From Prochlorococcus sp. AG-363-P08 (GTDB lineage Bacteria > Cyanobacteriota > Cyanobacteriia > PCC-6307 > Cyanobiaceae), in contig QCGE01000009.1 in assembly GCA_003278195.1 (NCBI GenBank), positions 1 through 64,000 of the forward strand: DNA of 64,000 nt, read 5' to 3'. Of this stretch, positions 28,035 through 55,100 are shown in pieces; position 1 is the stretch's first letter, and every line of letters starts with the position of its first letter. The notes under the pieces are model-generated. The model was not told the origin of the DNA. It worked only from the letters and a program-made list of their open reading frames with translations, and did not search any database. The position numbers and the translations under genes are program-made.

Positions 28035-28385
28035 TTAAGAATCTGATGAAACTATGTTCTCATCTCCATACGAATCTCTCAAAAGCTCACTCTCAGCCAA
28101 TTCGTCATAAAGCAAATCAAGACCAATGAGAACTCTTTCACGATCTGACAAATCACCAATAATTCTCCGAACAGGAGGTGGCAGGATTTTTGCGAGAGTA
28201 GGGGTAGCCAAAATCTTGTCTTCCTCTGCAAGCTGAGGATTCTTAAGTACATCAATAACCTTTAAGGCATAGACACCTCTAAACTCTGTTTCAAGAATAT
28301 TTCTCAAAGTTTTCAAGGCCCTCATTGAATTAGGTGTATTCCCCGCCACATAGAGCTTGAGAATATAAGTCTTTCGAGCACTCAT
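28035..28385 (-). CDS. kaiB: Circadian clock protein KaiB
   Basis: Thioredoxin-like fold-switching clock protein that binds the KaiC CI ring. The sequence from [20 protein letters not shown] through [42 protein letters not shown] is nearly canonical. At 116 aa it is about 14 residues longer than S. elongatus KaiB, with an acidic tail ([18 protein letters not shown]). The start is the ATG at 28385. The open frame continues upstream without family similarity to KaiB, but that extension resembles the end of KaiA (see 28386-28505). kaiBC are presumably co-transcribed. Confidence 0.96.
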
Positions 28386-28505
28386 AAGAAAACACCAGCC
28401 CTTAAGACAACACTGATTAAGTCTAGAAGAAATAGCAAGATCTCCCCAAAGATGTGCAAACGTATTTGCTAAAGACAGCAGCAACAAATTTTTCTTATAT
28501 CTTGA
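28386..28505 (-). pseudogene. Possible remnant of the kaiA 3' end
   Basis: The frame immediately upstream of kaiB is open for 40 codons back to a TAG at 28506-28508, but it has no ATG. It encodes [19 protein letters not shown] followed by ISSRLNQ. This resembles the last helix of S. elongatus KaiA (recalled as LTLIDVIAHLCEMYRRSIP): the AHL core and hydrophobic spacing match, with a two-residue gap. The position, ending about 50 bp before kaiB, is where kaiA ends in other cyanobacteria. The match is short and could be chance. Confidence 0.35.
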
Positions 28506-28640
28506 CTAATAGGACCTCTAACCCTGAAGATATTGGTTTAAATGTCGATTGCGTCTTAGGCCCAATCGGTTAAAACACCTTTAACCAACATAAAGTAGGT
28601 CTAAAGTTTTTTTTACCGAGCCTGAGCGTGTCTTAAGCCA

Positions 28641-29201
28641 ATGGCCGAAAAATCCCCTGAAAAAGCTTCAGCTAGCAAAGCCAGTACTAAAGCCTCAGCT
28701 AGCAAAGCCAGTACTAAAGCCTCAACTAGCAAAGCCAGCACTAAAGCCTCAACTAGCAAAGCCAGCACTAAAGCCTCAAACAGCAAAGTCTCAGAAAAGG
28801 CTGCTGCTAACAAGAGAACAACTAAAGAAACAAAAAAATCGACTCAAACACTCACAGACGCCAAAGATTCTAAATACGCAATAGTCGAATCCTCAGGACA
28901 ACAATTCTGGGTTCAGCCCAATCGGTACTACGACTTGGATCGAATTCAAGCAAATGTTGACGACACGGTGACTCTTGAGAACGTTCTTCTGTTGAAAAAT
29001 GGCAAAGAAGCAACAATTGGCAAACCCTATGTAAAAGGAGCAACAGTTGAACTACAAGTTTTATCTCACAGGAGAGGCCCTAAAATACTTGTGTACAAAA
29101 TGCGCCCCAAGAAAAAAACTCGTCGAAAGAATGGTCACCGTCAAGAACTAACCCGCGTTATGGTTAAATCAATTTCCATTAGCGGTAAAGCTATCCAGTA
29201 A
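28641..29201 (+). CDS. rplU: Ribosomal protein L21 with repetitive N-terminal extension
   Basis: Large-subunit protein L21. The core starts near residue 74 (KYAIVESSGQQFWVQPNRYYDLDRI) and runs to the C-terminus with GPKILVYKMRPKKKTRRKNGHRQ, about 110 residues, the normal family length. The first 73 residues are extra: four exact or near-exact copies of ASKASTKAS-type nonapeptides, then a degenerate copy and a Lys/Thr-rich linker. The extension is very basic and Ala/Ser/Thr/Lys-rich. The ATG at 28641 is the only good start before the core in this frame. rpmA follows 21 bp later; kaiB diverges. Confidence 0.94.
   Translation: MAEKSPEKASASKASTKASASKASTKASTSKASTKASTSKASTKASNSKVSEKAAANKRTTKETKKSTQTLTDAKDSKYAIVESSGQQFWVQPNRYYDLDRIQANVDDTVTLENVLLLKNGKEATIGKPYVKGATVELQVLSHRRGPKILVYKMRPKKKTRRKNGHRQELTRVMVKSISISGKAIQ
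28671..28805 (+). repeat. 27-bp tandem repeat inside rplU
   Basis: Five head-to-tail units of 27 bp start at 28671, 28698, 28725, 28752 and 28779. Units 1 and 2 are identical, and units 3 and 4 are identical. The two pairs differ at only two bases (GCT/ACT in the first codon, AGT/AGC in the fifth). Unit 5 is degenerate. Each unit encodes (A/T)SKASTKAS. The near-identity at silent positions points to recent expansion. Confidence 0.95.
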
Positions 29202-29222: not shown

Positions 29223-29489
29223 ATGGCTCATAAAAAAGGCACAGGCTCAACCCGTAACGGAAGAGATTCCAATTCAAAAAGACTTGGAGTAAAGGCCTAT
29301 GGCGGAGAGTCCGTAACTGCTGGCTCAATTCTTATCCGTCAAAGAGGAACTTCTGTACTCCCTGGTGTAAATGTTGGGAAAGGGAAAGACGATACTTTGT
29401 TTGCCCTAACTGATGGAATCGTCAAGTTTGAAAGTATTCGCAGAGGACTTCGTAACCGTAAAAGAATTAATGTAGCTACAGCGAAATAA
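29223..29489 (+). CDS. rpmA: Ribosomal protein L27
   Basis: 88-residue ribosomal protein near the peptidyl-transferase centre. [20 protein letters not shown] and [23 protein letters not shown] are the standard L27 N-terminus. It lies 21 bp after rplU, the usual L21-L27 operon. Confidence 0.97.
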
Positions 29490-54581: not shown

Positions 54582-55100
54582 TTAAATATCATTATCGCTC
54601 TCAGGGGGTTCTTCTATATCGAGATTTTCCTCTGAATCCAGATTTTCCTCTGAATCCAGATTTTCCTCTGAATTAAATAATGAAGACTCTAACGAGGAAA
54701 TATTACTAGGAATTAACTGCACATCTGGCTCAGATACAAAATCATCTTGCTTCTCAACTGTCTCTTGAGAAATATTCTCTTCGGCAAGCAAATCAGACTG
54801 GGCCAAGTCGTCGACCACCTGCTCATCTTCATTAAATTGAATTGTCAAAGGATTAGATTGAGTTTTCATCTTTTCATTATTTTGATTGGGAGTACTTGCA
54901 TCCTTTACTAAAAGAACAACAAGCTGGTTAATATTTCCAAACGCAGCCTTCTCACTTAAATAAAGGTTTCCAAGGACTACTCTTATTTCTTGATCAAAAG
55001 CCCCCTTCTTAAACAAGGCAATTCCTGTCCAGCCAACAAGAATTAACGATACTGCAAGGAAAGCTGCAATTAGTGCGTTAAACAATTTGATGGCTTTCAT
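54582..55100 (-). CDS. Acidic exported protein with SEENLD repeats, 172 aa
   Basis: A hydrophobic N-terminus (FNALIAAFLAVSLILVGWTGIALF) is a signal peptide or membrane anchor. A basic-to-neutral segment (FDQEIRVVLGNLYLSEKAAFGN) follows. From about residue 75 on, the protein is acidic and low in complexity, ending in three SEENLD hexapeptides and EEPPESDNDI. The tail is probably extended and lies in the periplasm or cytoplasm depending on orientation. Family unknown. The region of 18-bp repeats is given separately. Confidence 0.6.
   Translation of the reverse strand: MKAIKLFNALIAAFLAVSLILVGWTGIALFKKGAFDQEIRVVLGNLYLSEKAAFGNINQLVVLLVKDASTPNQNNEKMKTQSNPLTIQFNEDEQVVDDLAQSDLLAEENISQETVEKQDDFVSEPDVQLIPSNISSLESSLFNSEENLDSEENLDSEENLDIEEPPESDNDI
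54623..54676 (-). repeat. Three 18-bp direct repeats in the acidic protein gene
   Basis: Units begin at 54623, 54641 and 54659. The first two are identical and the third differs only at its end. Each adds six residues (SEENLD) to the acidic tail. Being a multiple of three, copy-number change would leave the frame intact. Confidence 0.9.

Follow-up and report, generated by a model that had tools for sequence, protein, structure and literature searches.

The window analyzed here comprises 64,000 nucleotides of contig QCGE01000009.1 (positions 1 to 64,000, forward strand) from the draft genome of Prochlorococcus sp. AG-363-P08, which has a size of 1.58 Mb in 37 contigs and is 84% complete; among named organisms, those closest to it belong to Prochlorococcus and Synechococcus. 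The gene rplU is located on the forward strand at positions 28641–29201 and encodes ribosomal protein bL21 with an N-terminal tail, 186 amino acids in total. The product was matched by Pfam PF00829 at residues 79–178 (E = 4e-33, 113.9 bits, cut-off 27) and by NCBIfam TIGR00061 (113.6 bits, cut-off 43.7), and this was the only L21 match in the genome, hence rplU is a single-copy gene. The conserved core extends from 28875 to 29198 with Tyr79 (base 28875) as its first residue, and it is preceded by a tail of 78 residues encoded at 28641–28874. Downstream follows the operon partner rpmA (29223–29489, forward strand), encoding ribosomal protein bL27 (PF01016). Upstream, on the same strand, we found a probable sigma-70 promoter of rplU at 28502–28531 (TTGACT, 18 nt, GAAGAT) and a conserved leader RNA hairpin at 28547–28632; in relatives, a TTGAC motif is likewise conserved about 44 nt upstream of the hairpin.

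Further upstream, kaiB and kaiC are encoded divergently on the opposite strand, and kaiA is absent from the region between them and rplU (28035–28640). The kaiB frame was listed from a TTG codon, its start is probably ATG 28385 instead. KaiA gave zero matches in all four genomes of the genus, in agreement with the published loss of kaiA in Prochlorococcus (PMC8113500). The idea that the bL21 tail is a remnant of the missing kaiA is unnecessary given that the tail occurs family-wide, the leader is conserved and the genus lacks a KaiA match.

Tandem repeats in the bL21 tail

Tandem Repeats Finder (TRF) detected an array at 28662–28788 with a period of 27 bp, 4.7 copies and 95% matches. Its score of 205 was the highest of any tandem array in the window, the runner-up reaching 105. 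Four near-identical 27-bp units encoding KAS[A/T]SKAST (28662–28769, forward strand; unit starts 28662, 28689, 28716 and 28743) are followed on the same strand by two degraded copies, KASNSKVSE and KAAANKRTT (28770–28823; starts 28770 and 28797). A sequence-only reading of this locus had described a basic tail of 73 residues built from a 27-bp unit repeated four times plus one degenerate copy; the repeat origin is borne out by TRF and the unit list, but the tail has 78 residues and the degraded copies number two.

Units 3 and 4 are identical. A single silent base distinguishes unit 1 from unit 2, and unit 3 departs from unit 2 in a single silent base and an Ala/Thr exchange. Identity at a lag of 27 bases was 0.95, whereas 20,000 codon shuffles did not exceed 0.656. 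Furthermore, the same codon was used in 43 of the 50 codon pairs with identical amino acids; 20,000 random draws from the codon usage of the window averaged 21.5 such pairs and never exceeded 41. Both values lie beyond their null distributions; therefore, whole DNA units were copied, and the repeat does not result from convergent protein composition. The copying of whole 27-bp DNA units is recent, and the earlier proposal that near-identity at silent sites reflects recent in-frame expansion is thus supported. The unit does not occur elsewhere in the 1.58-Mb draft genome, which rules out a mobile or multicopy element. The window contains a second in-frame tandem repeat at 54618–54673 (18 bp, 3.1 copies) within a gene on the reverse strand (54582–55100); its product of 172 amino acids has a hydrophobic N-terminus and an acidic C-terminal tail with SEENLD repeated three times, similar repeat growth to that in bL21 with opposite charge.

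The copy number could in principle be an artefact of assembly or amplification, as it stems from a single 37-contig genome with 84% completeness in which units 3 and 4 are identical. However, ordered point changes separate units 1, 2 and 3/4, the array spans merely 127 bp, and another genome of the same genus also carries a repeat tail. The number of identical units may be off by about one at most, and an artefact is considered very improbable.

Translation start

ATG 28641 is the sole start codon in the tail: between 28644 and 28874, no in-frame ATG, GTG, TTG, CTG, ATT, ATC or ATA was found. Upstream, an in-frame TGA is located at 28623–28625, five codons before ATG 28641, and none of these five is a start codon. 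The leader hairpin ends 8 nt before ATG 28641 and lies just 5' of the ATG in relatives as well; in an alignment of seven sequences, CGAGCCTG(A/G)NCGNGTC was found a few bases 5' of the aligned ATG in all relatives. With other starts excluded and the leader spacing conserved, translation starts at ATG 28641, an assignment that is secure as far as the sequence allows. A start downstream of the repeats, which would reduce the array to mere leader DNA, has a negligible probability, since the region 28644–28874 is devoid of start or near-start codons and the hairpin that directly precedes the ATG in relatives stops 8 nt 5' of 28641. No observation favoring such a start was found, and it would require a codon beyond the usual set of start codons. 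The start near 28800, which had been named as the finding that would speak against a tail, is rejected as no start codon is present there.

Occurrence of the tail in Cyanobiaceae

A disordered tail rich in S, A, T, P and K was found on L21 in all 176 distinct Cyanobiaceae genes compared, with 8–78 residues (median 17) as measured from the nearest ATG, a conservative start; hydrophobic residues account for 3.7% of these tails. Other cyanobacteria carry only 2–4 residues before the core tyrosine (56 compared, 16 + 40), and the low-complexity tail has no counterpart among them. The L21 tail is therefore a family-wide trait of Cyanobiaceae, and AG-363-P08 possesses its longest and most charged (+13) example among the 176 genes. 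The earlier notion that such a tail on a core ribosomal protein is unusual does not hold within this family, since every L21 compared carries one. No paper on the Cyanobiaceae L21 tail or the rplU leader was found in the open-access literature.

The four genomes of the genus have tails of 16, 16, 43 and 78 residues on cores that are 77–84% identical. The 43-residue tail (L003/L082, Prochlorococcus sp. AG-363-M17) is built from KTTS/KTTA repeat units with different codons; this different repeat-built tail reads MTTKTTSKTTSKTTAKTTSKTTAKTTAK. The tail of Synechococcus sp. RedBA-s (L009) contains a 30-bp unit in 2.5 copies with 97% match, and its ESPASESPAT repeats confer a negative charge, an instance of repeat growth without basic character. 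Tandem array scores in L21 tails were 141 for L009, 119 for L003, 66 for L017 and 58 for L008, and the score never exceeded 56 in L21 cores. The bL21 proteins of other Cyanobiaceae, among them those of AG-363-M17, Prochlorococcus sp. MIT 0701 and RedBA-s, share with that of AG-363-P08 the start position, a low-complexity tail and the leader hairpin, and the tails of AG-363-M17 and RedBA-s are likewise repeat-built. Other Cyanobiaceae tails differ in length (8–57 residues as compared to 78), in their units and in charge, which is often near-neutral or negative as compared to +13.

Charge and composition

Residues 1–78 contain 18 K, 18 S, 16 A and 12 T and carry a net charge of +13. In the other family genes the tail charge spans −5 to +7, decreasing with genome GC content (Spearman −0.57); tails of low-GC genomes are rich in K and N, those of high-GC genomes in A and P. 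Mutational bias on a disordered segment would be expected to give such a pattern, a conserved polycation would not. Because charge varies with genome GC, a conserved basic function of the histone H1 type is unlikely. The tail alone did not match any Pfam family up to an E-value of 10.

H1-type and KAP-like tails are likewise Lys/Ala/Ser/Thr-rich, disordered and basic, and the sequence-only reading had likened the bL21 tail to them. This comparison was abandoned: the AG-363-P08 tail has no profile match and only one proline, and the charge is not conserved among orthologues, running from −5 to +13 across the family and tracking GC. The expanded tail might nonetheless have been selected as an H1/KAP-type polycation that binds rRNA, mRNA or DNA, with a stabilizing effect on the ribosome or a second role. 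A net charge of +13 in 78 residues is the family maximum, and tails in low-GC lineages are mildly positive (median +1). We nevertheless consider selection as a polycation unlikely, as charge is GC-linked and unconserved, a Pfam match is lacking, and relatives within the same genus cope with 16 residues and charges of 0 to +2.

Structure prediction and ribosome context

The tail is predicted to lack ordered structure. In an AlphaFold model, residues 1–70 showed pLDDT values of about 38–45, residues 1–76 were free of secondary structure, and the L21 strands began at residue 79; confidence in this model is low for the core as well, with a mean pLDDT of 55 from an input of 7 sequences. Organellar targeting tails have a similar S/T/A/K-rich, weakly acidic make-up, and post-translational removal of the tail as a transit-peptide-like segment or pro-peptide would account for the tolerance of any tail sequence. 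However, the border of tail and core lacks a conserved site across the family, and we know of no route in cyanobacteria that requires removal of a tail; cleavage thus appears improbable.

A long extension on bL21 is also found in spinach and other plastids. The extensions of spinach bL21c are the longest of the 50S subunit (97 residues), and chloroplast extensions are mostly solvent-side, largely extended and poorly resolved (PMC5071890). By analogy with the solved bL21c, the AG-363-P08 tail probably remains on the ribosome and extends freely from the solvent face of its 50S subunit. The two extensions need not be homologous; bL21c is encoded by a nuclear gene with a transit peptide, and other cyanobacteria have only 2–4 residues at this position. 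Many bacteria carry ribosomal proteins with terminal extensions beyond E. coli length, most of them predicted to be disordered; Mycoplasma pneumoniae has 11 disordered extensions, and disrupting such extensions affects its fitness (PMC9534751). The AG-363-P08 extension differs from these in being a visibly recent tandem DNA array.

The rplU leader RNA hairpin

The leader hairpin (28547–28632) is formed by the pairings GAU/GUC, GCG/CGU, UUAGGC/GCCUGA and UCG/CGA; it includes a bulge of 4 nt, and its apical part is variable. RNAalifold predicted it independently from 52 relatives, with compensatory changes in 9 of 13 pairs. In this structure 93% of the alignment cells pair, as compared to at most 43% when it is slid by 1–3 columns, and 98 cells are doubly changed as compared to a shuffled mean of 34. 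Other cyanobacteria possess the same architecture as GCUCGGAUCAGGU...ACCUGUACGGC, which ends about 10–22 nt before the ATG and shows 16 doubly changed cells as compared to a shuffled mean of 3.4.

The covariance model match in the window spans 28539–28644 (50.7 bits). Covariance models gave at most one leader match per genome and detected the leader in 46 of the 61 family genomes; across the phylum, 33 of 88 genomes had a match, all belonging to the class Cyanobacteriia and none to the other classes sampled. For 53 matches the place of rplU is known, and each of these immediately precedes rplU in the same orientation. The sequences used to build the models match by construction, so that the informative part of this result is its specificity. 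Rfam 15 gave no match to the leader region at the gathering threshold and none that was credible at E-values up to 10, and no relevant match to ten related rplU loci; hence, an Rfam annotation was rejected for the leader. To look for mimicry of 23S rRNA by the leader, one rRNA locus was scanned with a degenerate pattern; this returned only scattered, chance-like matches and an ACCTGTA heptamer in 23S.

The leader is thus a candidate ribosomal-protein leader without an Rfam 15 match. Neither L21 nor cyanobacteria are mentioned in the text of a survey that describes 20 new ribosomal leaders (PMC7247131), and E. coli rplU-rpmA was reported not to be feedback-regulated by its products (PMC10931766). 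We tentatively suggest, with somewhat less than even confidence, that it represents an uncatalogued leader class conserved throughout Cyanobacteriia: bL21 or a partner ribosomal protein would repress its own operon via the hairpin, and the basic tail of Cyanobiaceae may modulate the contact with RNA. Behind this reading stand the hairpin and its conservation, and the hairpin is a more general result than the tail. If the leader binds a ribosomal protein, a regulated ribosomal protein operon would be added for a whole bacterial class.

Discussion

The most probable explanation, which we hold with good though not full confidence, is a family-specific flexible tail that was lengthened by in-frame slippage growth and is tolerated by the ribosome. 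The protein would be an ordinary bL21 with the N-terminal tail typical of Cyanobiaceae (Prochlorococcus, marine Synechococcus and Cyanobium). An ancestral tail of about 16–24 residues, whose remnants would be the initial MAEKSPEK and the terminal AKDSK, would have reached 78 residues through in-frame tandem duplication of the 27-bp unit. Replication slippage would be the simplest route of duplication; the DNA itself shows the copying, and we infer the mechanism. Selection for a basic function, cleavage and a misassembled copy number are conceivable, but all are less likely than slippage growth.

The presence of some tail appears to be constrained, since it was never lost in Cyanobiaceae, and its exact sequence, charge and length appear to be only loosely constrained. 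Hence, the expansion would most likely be tolerated or nearly neutral and would not provide a new function. Against this reading, the tail is exactly 17 residues long in 35 of 35 high-light-type and 12 of 12 genus-g56 genomes examined; length can hence be constrained, and the 78-residue tail could have been selected. The fitness effect of disrupting extensions in M. pneumoniae likewise speaks against it. The AG-363-P08 tail represents the extreme of a family trait and not a new device.

As a family-wide trait, the tail sets the ribosomes of Cyanobiaceae apart from those of other cyanobacteria. In these abundant ocean phototrophs, a core ribosomal protein has an evolutionarily loose N-terminus, a zone that has repeatedly grown by tandem duplication, and it provides a natural experiment on how much added disordered sequence a bacterial ribosome tolerates.
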